Shown here in pieces: positions 54,709 to 60,254 of a stretch of 64,000 nt of DNA. Origin of the DNA: Gemmatimonas sp. (GTDB lineage: Bacteria > Gemmatimonadota > Gemmatimonadetes > Gemmatimonadales > Gemmatimonadaceae); assembly GCF_027531815.1 (NCBI RefSeq), contig NZ_JAPZSK010000002.1:62001-126000 (forward strand), written 5' to 3'. Below the pieces are notes generated by a model. It made no database searches. It saw nothing but the letters and a program-made list of their open reading frames with translations, and had not been told where the DNA came from. Both the position numbers and the translations under genes were made by a program. Positions within the stretch are counted from its first letter, which is position 1. The number at the start of each line of letters is the position of its first letter.

Positions 54709-56223
54709 TCAGACCGGCGCCAGCGTCGGCGCCGGCTCTTTCGCTCCCTTGCGCGCCGGGGCGCCCCCGATCAACTCCGCCACGATCTTGCCCGAGGCGA
54801 TGACCCCGGGGAGGCCGGCACCCGGGTGCGTGCCCGCGCCACAGAAGTACAGGTTGGGGATGTCCTTGCTCTGGTTGTGCGGCCGCATGTACGCCGACTG
54901 TGTCAGCACCGGCTGCGGACCGAAGGCACTCCCCAGGTAGCTGTTGAGCGTGTTCTCGAAGTACCGCGGATCGATGCGCCGTTCGGTGACAATGTGCTGC
55001 TGCAGGTCGGGGAGATACCGATCCTCAAGATACTGCATGATCTTGTCGCGATAGCGCTGCCCGACCGCTTCCCAGTCGGTGCCGCTGCCCAGATGCGGCA
55101 CCGGCGAGAGCACGTACCAGCAGTCGTGCCCCGGCGGCGCAAGCGAGGGATCGGTGGCGGTGGGGCGGTGCAGGTACAGCGAGAAGTCGTCGGACAGGAT
55201 CTTGCGCTCGAAAATGTCCTCGAGCAGCGCCTTGTAGCGCGGACCCATGATGATCTCGTGGTGCGCCGTGCCGGGGTACTGCTTGTTGGTGCCGAAGTAG
55301 ATCACGAACAGCGACATGGAGTGCTGCAGCTTCTCCACCTTGCGATTCGGCACACTGGGGCGCTTCTCGGGCGCGATGAGCGTGCGATAGGCCTGCACCA
55401 GATCGCCGTTGCACACCACGGCGTCCGCGCGCAGCTGCTGCCCGTTCTTGAGGCGCACACCCGTGGTGCGGCGGTTGTCGCCCACGAGGATTTCATCCAC
55501 CTCGCTGTTGAGCCGCAGCTCGCCGCCCAGGTCTTCGAAGGCCTGGATGAGCGCGCGCACGAGTGCGCCCGTGCCGCCCATGGCGAAGAGCACCCCCCAC
55601 TGCTGCTCGAGCTTGTGGATGAGCGCATACACGCTCGATGAGCGATACGGATTGCCACCCACGAGCAGCGGGTGGAACGAGAAGACCTGCCGCAGCCGCT
55701 CGTCCTTGATGTACTTCTCGGCGAATCCGGCCACGGAGCGGTCGGCGCGCGTACGCACGAGATCGGGGATTGCCGACACCATGGAGCCGATGGTGAGGAA
55801 CGGCTTGTCAATGAGCGGCATGCCGACGTTGAAAATCTCCCACGACTTTTCGCGGAAGCGGCGGTAGCCCTCCACGTCGCTGGGCGAAAAGGCCTCGACC
55901 TGACGGAAGATGTCGTCCTTGCTGCCGTTGTAGTGGAAGACGCTGCCGTCCTCGAACCGGATGTTGTAGAACGGATCGAGCAGGACGAGCTTGATATAGT
56001 CTTCGGTCCTGCGGCCGGTCAGGGCGAACAGCTCGTCGAGCACCCACGGTGCCGTGACGATGGTCGGGCCCCCATCGAACGTGAACCCGTCCTGCTCGAA
56101 CACGTATGCGCGGCCACCCGGTTTGTCGAGCTTCTCGACGATGGTGACCTCGTGTCCCTGGGCCTGCAGACGGATTGCGGCGGCGATGCCGCCGAAGCCA
56201 CTGCCAATGACGACGATGCGCAT
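54709..56223 (-). CDS. crtI: CrtI-type phytoene/carotenoid desaturase
   Basis: 504 residues. The N-terminal FAD-binding motif is VVIGSGFGGIAAAIRLQAQG followed by EKLDKPGGRAYVFE; the C-terminal block is NLYFCGAGTHPGAGLPGVIA, characteristic of bacterial CrtI. It inserts conjugated double bases bonds into phytoene (to lycopene or neurosporene) at the membrane. A CrtD-type role (3,4-desaturation) is possible because this family is hard to split by eye. The adjacent crtB and cruF support carotenoid synthesis. Confidence 0.9.
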   Translation of the reverse strand: MRIVVIGSGFGGIAAAIRLQAQGHEVTIVEKLDKPGGRAYVFEQDGFTFDGGPTIVTAPWVLDELFALTGRRTEDYIKLVLLDPFYNIRFEDGSVFHYNGSKDDIFRQVEAFSPSDVEGYRRFREKSWEIFNVGMPLIDKPFLTIGSMVSAIPDLVRTRADRSVAGFAEKYIKDERLRQVFSFHPLLVGGNPYRSSSVYALIHKLEQQWGVLFAMGGTGALVRALIQAFEDLGGELRLNSEVDEILVGDNRRTTGVRLKNGQQLRADAVVCNGDLVQAYRTLIAPEKRPSVPNRKVEKLQHSMSLFVIYFGTNKQYPGTAHHEIIMGPRYKALLEDIFERKILSDDFSLYLHRPTATDPSLAPPGHDCWYVLSPVPHLGSGTDWEAVGQRYRDKIMQYLEDRYLPDLQQHIVTERRIDPRYFENTLNSYLGSAFGPQPVLTQSAYMRPHNQSKDIPNLYFCGAGTHPGAGLPGVIASGKIVAELIGGAPARKGAKEPAPTLAPV

Positions 56224-56264: not shown

Positions 56265-56555
56265 TCAGCGACGCAGCAGGACGGCAATGTGCCAGAGGTG
56301 AATGACCATGGCCGACAGCATGGCAATGGCGAACCCCTCGGGCGACGGGTCAGGACGCCGGTGGAAGATCATGGCTGCAACGAGCGAACCCCCCGCTCCG
56401 AGAAACGACACGATCCGGGCAACATTGGGCTTCCCCAATGCGGAGTCGGGCGTGCGCCGCTGCCAGATCACCAACACCAGCGCCTCGAACACGATGAGAA
56501 CGAGGATGCCGATCGGCAGGGCATCAGAGTCGAAAATGGGAACGAGGCGATCCAT
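56265..56555 (-). CDS. Small membrane protein between crtI and cruF
   Basis: 96 residues with three hydrophobic helices (LPIGILVLIVFEALVLVIW, IVSFLGAGGSLVAAMIF, GFAIAMLSAMVIHLWHIAVL). Not recognised. It lies after the cruF terminator and 41 bases before crtI on the same strand, so it probably shares the crtI transcript. A TAGCCT hexamer lies 13 bases before its ATG. A role in carotenoid or envelope biology is guesswork from position. Confidence 0.55.
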   Translation of the reverse strand: MDRLVPIFDSDALPIGILVLIVFEALVLVIWQRRTPDSALGKPNVARIVSFLGAGGSLVAAMIFHRRPDPSPEGFAIAMLSAMVIHLWHIAVLLRR

Positions 56556-56707: not shown

Positions 56708-57670
56708 TCAGCGCGTACCGAGCGCGCCATCGCGAGCCGGCTGCAGCGGGGTGGTCCCCAGACTCGTCAGCGGCGCCGGATCATTGCGCAGCGCCGCCCA
56801 GAGCGGGATGACCATGGCGATGGTGCCGAGTACGCCGGCCGGCACCATGTCCCAGCGGAAACAGATCGCGATGGGCAGCAGGCCGTTGATGGCGTACAAG
56901 GCGATCGGCAGGCGGTGCGGTGCCACCTTGGCCACCCACTCCGACGGCGGCACGAAGGCAAGCATGACCCGCGCCACCAGGATACCGGTGAGCAGCCACC
57001 CGAGCCAATTGGTGATGGGCATGCCGAAGAAGATGGGATTGCCGATCCACTGCTCGAACTGCGAGCGGTTGGACAGGTCCCCGATCTCCCAGAACCAGTG
57101 GTTCGTCTTCGCCATGGCCGGGTCCATGGACACGTCCCACAGCGTGAGCACCACGCCGCCCACCAGTGACCACCACCACTTGGAGACGTTGTCGTCCGTC
57201 CCCTTGAGGAAGCGGCCGCAAATCGCGAGCGACGCGACGAGCATGTAGAACCACGACGTCGGGATGTTGAACGGCACCTTGCCGCCGATCTTGTATCCCA
57301 ATTGGCTGCTGTACTCGTACGCGCCGAACGGATAATCCCACCGCGTGCCCACGTACTCCGACGTGAGCGCCAGGATGAAGGCCACGAGGAAGGTGATCAC
57401 CGCTTTGCGCGTCCCCACGGCCCACGCGAGGAAGGCGAGGCCGGAGATGGCTCCCAGCGTGACCGTGGTGGCGCCGCCGTAGGTGAAGCCCATGGCCATC
57501 ACCTTCTGGTTCTGCGGCGTCTGCAACCACTCCGGATATGGGGGCAGCAGGAACGTGGCAAAGGCGAACGCGGAAAACGCACTGAAAAACAGATGCCCCA
57601 GCAGGGTGATCGACGCGATCTTGAAGAGCGTCGACTTCGTACTGTCCTGTTGGTCTGTGTACAGGGTCAT
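56708..57670 (-). CDS. cruF: CruF-type carotenoid 1,2-hydratase
   Basis: 320 residues with about eight hydrophobic helices. The TSEYVGTRWDYPFGAYEYS block and WDVSMDPAMAKTNHWFWE are typical of the CruF/DUF422 family, which adds water to the psi end of acyclic or monocyclic carotenoids. With crtB 12 bases upstream and crtI downstream it fits synthesis of hydroxylated acyclic carotenoids; Gemmatimonas species are reported to make oscillol-type glycosides, which need such hydration. No glycosyltransferase or 2-hydroxylase is in this window. Confidence 0.85.
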   Translation of the reverse strand: MTLYTDQQDSTKSTLFKIASITLLGHLFFSAFSAFAFATFLLPPYPEWLQTPQNQKVMAMGFTYGGATTVTLGAISGLAFLAWAVGTRKAVITFLVAFILALTSEYVGTRWDYPFGAYEYSSQLGYKIGGKVPFNIPTSWFYMLVASLAICGRFLKGTDDNVSKWWWSLVGGVVLTLWDVSMDPAMAKTNHWFWEIGDLSNRSQFEQWIGNPIFFGMPITNWLGWLLTGILVARVMLAFVPPSEWVAKVAPHRLPIALYAINGLLPIAICFRWDMVPAGVLGTIAMVIPLWAALRNDPAPLTSLGTTPLQPARDGALGTR

Positions 57671-57682
57671 GCGAACTGCACC

Positions 57683-58678
57683 TCAGGCAAGACGGACAAG
57701 TGCATCGGCGTTGGACGATGCCGTGTTGGGTTCCCACACGATGCGCGGGCCATGGCCCAGCGCGGACAGATCGGGCGTGGGGGCGCGGTACCGCCACGCG
57801 TTCCAGAGTATGCCCACGCGCGCGAGTCGACCAATGCGGGCTCGCGACGAGATGGTGTCGTATCCCTGGGCTTCGATGGCGGACAGGATGCCGGCGTAGC
57901 CCGTCGCGCAAGCAGCCGCGCACCGCTGGGCGTCGGCATCGAGCAGGGCAATGCCGGGCATGGCCGCCGCGTACAACGCGCGCGCCCGGCTGACCTCGAA
58001 GGCCATGAGCTTGGCCCACGACGCATGGCGCGCCAATGCGGGATCGCGCGCCAGCACATCCTGCGCCGTCAGCCCGAAGCGCGCCATATCCTCAGCCGGC
58101 AGGTAGCAGCGCCCGCGTCCCGCATCCTCACCCACATCCCGCAGGATGTTGGTGAGCTGCATGGCGGTACCCAGCGTGCGCGCATACTGGATGGCCTTGA
58201 CCCGCATCGCCGGACCAGCCGGCACACCAAAGACGTAGGTGCACATCTCACCCACCGAACTCGCCACCCCTTCGCAATACTGCTCGAGCTCGGGCCACGT
58301 TTCGTATGTGTGCGCCTCGAGATCGCGACCCACGCCATCGAGCAGCTCGAAGAGGGGGGCGGGGGACACCTCGTACGCTCGCGTCACCCACGCCATTTCA
58401 CGGAAGATGGGACCCGACGGGCGCCCATCGAGCGCGGCCTGCAACTGCTCACGGTACGCGTCGAGCTGCAGGCGCAGCGCCACGAGATTGCCGTGATCGG
58501 CCTGATCCACGAGGTCGTCGGCGACGCGGCAGAAGGCGTACAGCGCGTACGCCGCACGGCGCTTTTCCAATGGCAGCAGCTTGCTGGCCAGCGAGAAGGT
58601 GCGCGCATGCGCCATCGTGATGCGCGCGCACTCCGCCGCATCGGTGTGCGCATTGCTGCGCGTGGCGGGTGCGATCAT
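57683..58678 (-). CDS. crtB: Phytoene synthase
   Basis: 331 residues. Joins two geranylgeranyl diphosphates to phytoene. Asp-rich motifs: YAFCRVADDLVDQAD and NILRDVGEDAGRGRCYLPAE, plus the YEGVASSVGEMC-like region (YCEGVASSVGEM). Squalene synthase is excluded mainly by context with crtI and cruF. It heads the crtB-cruF transcript. Its upstream region holds two TGT-N12-ACA palindromes and a terminator of the susD gene. Confidence 0.9.
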   Translation of the reverse strand: MIAPATRSNAHTDAAECARITMAHARTFSLASKLLPLEKRRAAYALYAFCRVADDLVDQADHGNLVALRLQLDAYREQLQAALDGRPSGPIFREMAWVTRAYEVSPAPLFELLDGVGRDLEAHTYETWPELEQYCEGVASSVGEMCTYVFGVPAGPAMRVKAIQYARTLGTAMQLTNILRDVGEDAGRGRCYLPAEDMARFGLTAQDVLARDPALARHASWAKLMAFEVSRARALYAAAMPGIALLDADAQRCAAACATGYAGILSAIEAQGYDTISSRARIGRLARVGILWNAWRYRAPTPDLSALGHGPRIVWEPNTASSNADALVRLA

Positions 58679-58812
58679 GCCACCGAACTCGGAAGACGCC
58701 GAGGTTTCATCGAAGCGATGTCAGGCAGGGATGACGAAGATGGCACAGGCTGGCCCGGAAACCGCAGTGATCCCCGGCACGAGCTTAACGCAGGACGGGA
58801 CAACGGGTTCCT

Positions 58813-58828
58813 GCCCCCCACGGGGGGC
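58813..58828 (-). other. GC hairpin in the predicted crtB leader
   Basis: GCCCCCC (58813-58819) and GGGGGGC (58822-58828) pair around two bases. It lies ~135 bases before the crtB ATG, within the long leader predicted from the -10 at 58853. It is GC-only, with no U-run, so its meaning is open. No gene is seen in 58679-58994. Confidence 0.35.
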
Positions 58829-58852
58829 GAAAACGCGACGGCTCCGGGGATG

Positions 58853-58880
58853 ATAATGAACCTGTGACCGCTTGGTCCAA
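58853..58880 (-). promoter_or_regulatory. Candidate crtB promoter
   Basis: Minus strand: TTGGAC (58875-58880), 16 bases, CATTAT (58853-58858). Both hexamers are moderate. The start would be near 58846, leaving a ~167-base leader. The nearest TGT-N12-ACA site begins two bases upstream of this -35. Confidence 0.35.
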
Positions 58881-58881
58881 C

Positions 58882-58924
58882 TGTCAACTGATTCTTACAG
58901 CGCCAGTGTCACGGATAATTGACA
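58882..58924. promoter_or_regulatory. Two TGT-N12-ACA palindromes upstream of crtB (PpsR/CrtJ-type sites)
   Basis: TGTCAACTGATTCTTACA (58882-58899) and TGTCACGGATAATTGACA (58907-58924) both read TGT-N12-ACA, and the second is symmetric over TGTCA-N8-TGACA. Seven bases separate them. TGT-N12-ACA is the known binding site of PpsR/CrtJ, redox- and light-responsive repressors of pigment genes; CrtJ binds paired sites cooperatively. They sit just upstream of the proposed crtB -35. Binding by such a regulator here is inference. Confidence 0.55.
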
Positions 58925-58935
58925 GGGTGGCCGAC

Positions 58936-58972
58936 AAAAGGGGGAGGAGCCGCGATGGCCCCTCCCCCCTTT
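58936..58972 (-). terminator. Terminator of the susC-susD transcript
   Basis: AAAAGGGGGAGG (58936-58947) pairs with CCTCCCCCCTTT (58961-58972) with one bulged C, with an inner GCC/GGC; on the minus strand the stem ends in CCTTTTGTC. It lies 22 bases after the susD stop. Confidence 0.7.
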
Positions 58973-58994
58973 ACACGTCCCGCATGCCGGCGAC

Positions 58995-60254
58995 TCAGGT
59001 GCGCATGTTGGGGTTGTTGTCACGCTCAACGAACGGAATCGGATAACAGGTGTCCGTTCCCGTGTTGCCGATGCCGGGCTTGAAGTACGGCTGTCCGGTC
59101 GCCGTCACGCCCGCCGTGGCCGCCGGGTCGCGGCGGAAGTCGGCCACGCGCTTGCCTTCGAGATAGAAGTCATAGCCGCGCTGCGTGAACAGCTCGCGCT
59201 TCACGCTCGCCGCGTCCTGCGGACCGCTGTAGGGCACCAGGCCGGCTGCCGCCCGGCGGGCGTTGATCAGCGTCAGCTGGGTGGTCACGTCCCCCGACGC
59301 CTCGGCCGCGATGTAGTCGGCTTCCAGCTTGCTCGCGAGGCGGATGGGCGCCGCATAGCCGGGGAACTTGAACTGCTGGTGGAAACCACCCGGCACGGGA
59401 TCCTGGGGCTGCGCCGTGGGCGCGGGCGTACCGCCCTGCACACGGTACGGCACGCGCGGATCGTTCGTGCGCCAGAACGGGGCCACGCTGATCGACCCAC
59501 GGTCGAAGCTGAAGAACCACAGGTCGTTCGACAGGCGGGCCCGGTTACCCGGGTCGTCGGTGTAGCGCATGGTGAACTCAAAGCCGGCCGGCACCGCCGC
59601 GGCATCCGCCGCCGCCCCGGCGTTGTCCCGGCGCTGCAGGCGCGCGCGAGCACGGCCTACGAGGGCCAGGTTCGCCAGCGACGCACCTTCCGCCGTTCCG
59701 TTGGCGCGCCCCACCTCGATGCCGCGGGTGAGCCAGAACGACGCCGAATCGAGCATCTGATTCGTGTTGAGTTCCGGCCCCGACGAGAAGCTGCCGGTGC
59801 AGAAATCGCTGGCCATCTGCAGCATGGCGAAGCCGCGGAACGTGGCCGCACGCGCCACGCTGATGTTGGTGTTCGGGTTCGGCAGCGCGAGGTCGAGCAC
59901 CTGCTTGGCCGAGGCGATGGCGCGAGACAGCGGCGCCCACACGTCACCGTTGAGCGACCCGTTGAGTGGCGTGATGTTGCGAACGCCGAACTCGTTGCGC
60001 GTGGGGAACGTGTCGGACACGTTCGCCTCGCCGCTGAACCAGGCGCCGTACATCGCGAGCAGCCCGAACATGTCGACGAAATTCTGCTGCGCCGACAGCG
60101 CCAGGGTGTTGCCGCTCGACACCGGGTCCACCGTGGAGGCGTCGATGACGTTGGGATTGGTCACGGTGACGAACTCGTCACCGCAGGCGGTCGCGCCGAG
60201 GGCGAGTACCGCACCCGCCGCCGTGCGCGAAACCGCGCGGACGATCTTCTTCAT
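58995..60254 (-). CDS. SusD/RagB-type outer-membrane lipoprotein
   Basis: 419 residues. Signal peptide with lipobox LALGATAC, so the cysteine is lipidated and the protein sits on the outer membrane. Helical SusD-like body: NTLALSAQQNFVDMFGLLAM, SRAIASAKQVLDLAL, and the C-terminal LFTQRGYDFYLEGKRVADFR with CYPIPFVERDNNPN, as in SusD/RagB proteins. It caps the SusC barrel encoded 13 bases upstream and captures the substrate, probably a glycan, peptide or other oligomer; no degrading enzymes are adjacent, so the substrate is unknown. Confidence 0.85.
   Translation of the reverse strand: MKKIVRAVSRTAAGAVLALGATACGDEFVTVTNPNVIDASTVDPVSSGNTLALSAQQNFVDMFGLLAMYGAWFSGEANVSDTFPTRNEFGVRNITPLNGSLNGDVWAPLSRAIASAKQVLDLALPNPNTNISVARAATFRGFAMLQMASDFCTGSFSSGPELNTNQMLDSASFWLTRGIEVGRANGTAEGASLANLALVGRARARLQRRDNAGAAADAAAVPAGFEFTMRYTDDPGNRARLSNDLWFFSFDRGSISVAPFWRTNDPRVPYRVQGGTPAPTAQPQDPVPGGFHQQFKFPGYAAPIRLASKLEADYIAAEASGDVTTQLTLINARRAAAGLVPYSGPQDAASVKRELFTQRGYDFYLEGKRVADFRRDPAATAGVTATGQPYFKPGIGNTGTDTCYPIPFVERDNNPNMRT

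Follow-up and report, generated by a model that had tools for sequence, protein, structure and literature searches.

Paired PpsR/CrtJ-type palindromes at the promoter of an apparently resident crtB carotenoid operon in phototrophic Gemmatimonas

Regulators of the PpsR/CrtJ family combine an N-terminal region and PAS domains with a Fis-type HTH. They commonly carry a redox cysteine in the HTH region (Cys420/424/436), which is not a defining feature of the family and is absent in PpsR2. In Rhodobacter, the HTH cysteine of PpsR/CrtJ mediates the oxygen response (PMC4452267). CrtJ binds paired TGT-N12-ACA palindromes and, in the form of SAerR-CrtJ, represses the crtB operon of Rba. capsulatus (PMC9144470). 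The Rhodobacter operators (bchC, crtA, crtB and puc) place such pairs over promoter boxes of both carotenoid and bacteriochlorophyll genes, typically with a spacing of 8 bp or at a distance with looping. Rubrivivax gelatinosus, a purple bacterium rather than a member of a recipient phylum, has a photosynthesis gene cluster (PGC) that resembles those of Gemmatimonas (PMC12817894); its PpsR, in which Cys436 is present, acts on a carotenoid target (crtI) and on pucB through tight palindrome pairs spaced by 8/9 bp, with little redox effect at the 8-bp spacing (PMC4452267). The HTH cysteine is lacking in the PpsR2 of Bradyrhizobium and Rps. palustris, and that of Bradyrhizobium is regarded as controlled by light and not by redox state (PMC4452267). 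In Gemmatimonas, published work derives the PGC from a purple bacterium, a well documented cross-phylum transfer of photosynthesis, and describes PGC regulation as minimal in the new host. For G. phototrophica, one PpsR site has been reported, at bchID-puhE inside the PGC, in a text that makes no mention of crtB; the transcriptome of this species showed almost no response to oxygen and only transient repression by light (PMC11406998).

The locus described here lies in a 64,000-nucleotide stretch of a Gemmatimonas sp. genome (the window) and comprises a carotenoid operon, its predicted promoter and the gene upstream of it:

54709..56223, minus strand: crtI/crtD-family carotenoid desaturase (NCBIfam crtI_fam, 7e-184)
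56265..56555, minus strand: small putative membrane protein of 96 aa between cruF and crtI (from the ORF list)
56708..57670, minus strand: cruF-like carotenoid 1,2-hydratase, 12 bp after crtB (NCBIfam CruF, 2.5e-37; Pfam Caroten_synth)
57683..58678, minus strand: crtB, phytoene synthase family (Pfam SQS_PSY, 1.3e-75; NCBIfam)
58859..58864, minus strand: -10-like hexamer CAGGTT, 17 bp downstream of the -35 hexamer; CANNTT in relatives
58882..58887, minus strand: -35 hexamer TTGACA, inside the proximal palindrome; nearly all relatives have CA-N2-TT 17 bp after TTGACA
58934..58970, minus strand: GC-rich hairpin followed by TTTT (consensus read by eye), the likely terminator of the SusD-like gene
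58995..60254, minus strand: SusD-like gene upstream of crtB (assigned by eye; no NCBIfam match)

The genes crtB, cruF, the 96-aa ORF and crtI all lie on the same strand. Since the hairpin likely terminates the upstream SusD-like gene, crtB probably begins its own transcript, whose leader is predicted to measure about 170 nt. The genome has a single close crtB homologue, which lies outside the PGC. Synteny in congeners lacking ppsR, where a similar SusD-like C-terminus also precedes crtB (G001 and G009, compared by eye), together with the phylogenetic place of crtB within the family, points to an operon that seems native to the host phylum; this distinguishes it from the Rhodobacter case, as does its position outside the PGC.

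Two TGT-N12-ACA palindromes lie at this promoter, seven bases apart, at the coordinates given in an earlier note on this DNA. The distal one (58907-58924) reads TGTCACGGATAATTGACA, an exact match of the form TGTCA-N8-TGACA, also as described before; the proximal one (58882-58899) reads TGTCAACTGATTCTTACA, of the form TGTCA-N8-TTACA (TGTAAGAATCAGTTGACA on the minus strand). They are separated by GCGCCAG (7 nt, compared with the typical 8 bp of Rhodobacter) and are 25 bp apart from centre to centre. The earlier note had placed both just upstream of the crtB promoter; the proximal palindrome, judged from the sequence and from an alignment of 31 promoters, contains the predicted -35 box itself. 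A lone TGT-N12-ACA site would mean little, because isolated matches are common in the window (10 observed and 7.2 expected, not a significant difference). When the window was simulated 300 times with a Markov model, two runs produced a pair of such sites at an offset of 18-30 nt and no run produced two strict sites. Pattern searches for the strict form TGT(A/C)A-N8-T(G/T)ACA (TGTMA-N8-TKACA) returned exactly two matches in the whole 4.3-Mb genome, both belonging to the crtB pair, and a single genome-wide match when the pattern was read backwards. The pairing and extended symmetry of the crtB sites are thus far from chance. An Rfam scan of 58600-59100 gave sub-threshold chance matches only.

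A search of the genome for a ppsR-like gene encoding PAS and HTH domains, as the earlier note had proposed, found a single PpsR above the family cut-off (L001, G000:C6:516630-517952). It scores 478 bits against TIGR02040 (cut-off 275), covering profile positions 1-441 of 442, and carries Pfam PAS and HTH_8 domains; it aligns with the solved PpsR structure 4hh2 (PDB) over 366 residues (E 1e-45), and sequence comparison places its recognition-helix region close to that of purple-bacterial PpsR. In the PpsR2 systems, by contrast, the work is divided between two PpsR copies. An aerR-like gene whose product has a B12-binding domain adjoins ppsR on its upstream side, and pufLM is present in the cluster around it, as are bch, puh and acsF genes, which were recognised by eye from sequence and order and paired one to one with genes of the G003 PGC. 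The genome is therefore of the phototrophic Gemmatimonas type, with its PGC on another contig (G000:C6) than crtB. That the window itself holds no photosynthesis gene, as previously observed, is correct; the conclusion drawn from it, that the control could be ancestral, is misleading, and the site pair is no relic, because the genome carries a PGC with pufLM, aerR and a full-length PpsR. The other suggestion, that the control was borrowed, agrees with the published derivation of the Gemmatimonas PGC from a purple bacterium.

In all likelihood, cooperative binding of the acquired PpsR to the pair represses the resident crtB-cruF-crtI operon and matches native carotenoid supply to the acquired photosystem. 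Under this model, PpsR, encoded with aerR, would have arrived in the horizontally acquired PGC; two PpsR dimers would occupy the two palindromes cooperatively at 25 bp centre to centre, and the proximal dimer would cover the -35 box and block RNA polymerase, such that crtB, cruF, the intervening ORF and crtI would be repressed. AerR, the putative B12-binding partner encoded beside ppsR, would be the likely light or metabolic input. We infer PpsR binding, crtB repression and the signal from the sites, their overlap with the promoter, the PpsR gene, conservation, co-occurrence and a motif shared with the PGC. A rather unlikely variant is that PpsR bound to the pair does not simply repress crtB but activates it, or regulates it in either direction as determined by AerR. 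In Rba. capsulatus, CrtJ becomes an activator through LAerR (PMC9144470), PpsR of Rvi. gelatinosus is reported to be both repressor and activator (PMC4452267), an aerR-like gene adjoins ppsR here and pigments are made in air and light (PMC11406998); however, coverage of the -35 box itself by the proximal palindrome is the usual geometry of a repressor, as at purple-bacterial bchC.

Conservation of the palindromes upstream of crtB in related strains, likewise raised by the earlier note, was found. The genus sample comprised 27 genomes with crtB and at least 300 nt of upstream DNA, 24 of which carry TGT-N12-ACA at the crtB promoter (23 at the proximal position; in G014 the proximal spacer is 13 nt and the distal site is intact). 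The three without a site (G001, G009 and G019) all lack PpsR and pufM. The promoter block is absent from G001 and G009, despite the retained SusD-like C-terminus before crtB, and G019 keeps TTGACA and the -10 box with CGT in place of TGT in the outer half. The crtB genes of G009 and G001 (L031 and L032; pufM also absent) sit on long branches. Nine genus genomes, including the source genome, have a distal TGT-N12-ACA at an upstream offset of 25 nt from the proximal one, and one genome has it at 26 nt; several other relatives have CGT-N12-ACA at this position, and G015, G012, G010 and G013 each have just one intact site. In the sister genus g24, TGTCA-N8-TTGACA precedes crtB in all five genomes, each of which encodes PpsR.

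Across the family, PpsR and the site occur together in 28 genomes and are both absent in 27, with 16 genomes having PpsR only and two the site only (Fisher p 7e-7, a test that ignores kinship); both of the latter are fragmented MAGs with puf genes. The crtB tree holds only four independent contrasts in PpsR, of which two to three agree with the association and none oppose it, and a sign test on these is not significant. Retention of the crtB site is almost confined to genomes that retain PpsR. The association is lineage-specific, since a strict site upstream of crtB was not found in 16 PpsR-encoding genomes of other genera. Together, the ppsR gene, the conservation of the sites and their co-occurrence with ppsR lend support to the original assignment of the palindromes as PpsR/CrtJ-type sites controlling crtB; of the two findings that the earlier note had named as refuting it, a genome devoid of any PpsR-like regulator and unconserved palindromes, neither was obtained.

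The 31 upstream regions aligned (the source genome, G000, and 30 relatives, anchored on TTGACA) show three conserved islands in an otherwise poorly conserved stretch, namely TGT(A/C)A, TTGACA and CANNTT, and information peaks exactly at these, the last of them being the -10 box. In that box, the A is present in 30 of 31 rows and the final T in every row. In nearly all relatives, this box is CANNTT (often CACCTT) and not TATAAT, possibly a typical feature of the phylum. It is very improbable that the block represents a strong -35 element with chance symmetry and no role for PpsR. TTGACA alone supplies the ACA half, and the PpsR-less G019 retains both promoter boxes. Against this, the TGT and A columns of the TGT(A/C)A half reach 1.5-1.8 bits amid surroundings of mostly 0.05-0.5 bits, although they lie outside the promoter boxes; a second palindrome is found repeatedly at an offset of 25 nt; and the outer half has become CGT in G019, with the block missing altogether from G001 and G009.

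In other phyla, the operators of CarH/LitR at carotenoid promoters overlap the -35 box, and the region holds several TGACA/TGTAA words, but binding of TGTnA-type repeats at the crtB -35 box by such a B12-dependent MerR photoreceptor is the least probable reading, with hardly any likelihood left to it, given that the crtB site tracks ppsR across genomes. A search for a CarH/LitR candidate with PF02607 (B12-binding_2) gave just two matches in the genome, one of MetH size (1245 aa) and the ppsR neighbour, and no MerR-B12 protein.

The motif family of the crtB sites is also present within the PGC. A scan of the other pigment genes, as suggested in the earlier note, located weaker TGT-N12-ACA sites in the PGC of the source genome before crtF/bchI (483007 and 483042), bchC (484496) and bchG (518089), all conserved in relatives:

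L095:7008-7060: TGT-N12-ACA before crtF/bchI
L095:8497-8514: TGT-N12-ACA before bchC
L097:2090-2107: TGT-N12-ACA before bchG

G000, G003 and G007 share an identical crtF/bchI site, TGTACACTTTTCTTGACA, the bchG site can be recognised in the majority of 22 genomes, and some relatives have a further site between bchO and pufL. The motif published for G. phototrophica at bchID-puhE was found again here at crtF/bchI; the PGC sites outnumber the single one of that analysis, which lies inside the PGC, with crtB absent from the text (PMC11406998). The pathway proposed for gemmatoxanthin combines crtI and cruF with crtF of the PGC (PMC8342508), which gives a reason to coordinate the native operon with the PGC. 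Strict sites at further positions in relatives (e.g. G002:573425 and G012:C27) were considered as a pigment regulon and formed no evident conserved set. A strict PpsR-like palindrome lies between what are apparently the same two genes, one of them cystathionine gamma-synthase-like, in G002 and G021 (L183 2426 and L182 2472).

The signal governing PpsR probably differs from that in Rhodobacter. All 38 Gemmatimonadaceae PpsR sequences read (21 from Gemmatimonas and 17 others; the set includes L001, L036-L055 and L220-L237) have Phe (VERHFIEAAL) in place of the HTH redox cysteine, whereas the position is Cys in all five purple-bacterial references. Direct cysteine-based oxygen sensing has thus probably been lost in Gemmatimonadaceae PpsR. 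With Phe at this position in every sequence read, Rhodobacter-type redox control is unlikely; the substitution fits the reported absence of oxygen control in G. phototrophica (PMC11406998), and the redox component of the control previously proposed for crtB is not supported. Loss of the cysteine is not unique, as Cys-less PpsR2 is known from Bradyrhizobium and Rps. palustris.

One MAG bears on how far the regulator depends on the photosystem. In G013 (L153, G013:C2:143639-148095), ABC-transporter genes of the left PGC flank abut aerR-ppsR-bchG, and neither pufM nor BchY was found in this genome. PpsR is intact, bchG and bchP remain and the crtB site, TGTAAAGAGATGTTGACA, is retained. The arrangement represents an apparent deletion of the PGC core, though misassembly is possible; the loss may be recent, as bchG and bchP remain. 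This pattern suggests that what PpsR does at crtB does not depend on the photosystem. We give about even chances to the fuller scenario that the imported PpsR gave up its oxygen switch with its DNA specificity preserved, that it took over the native carotenoid operon, which holds the strongest PpsR sites in the genome, and that this control has outlasted the deletion of most of the PGC in one lineage or more.

For the missing oxygen response, the conserved absence of the HTH cysteine provides a simple molecular explanation. If PpsR does control crtB, a key point of integration would lie outside the PGC, where an acquired regulator would govern the phytoene synthase genes of the host. This bears on how transferred regulators rewire the genomes of their recipients, and it can be tested directly in cultured strains.
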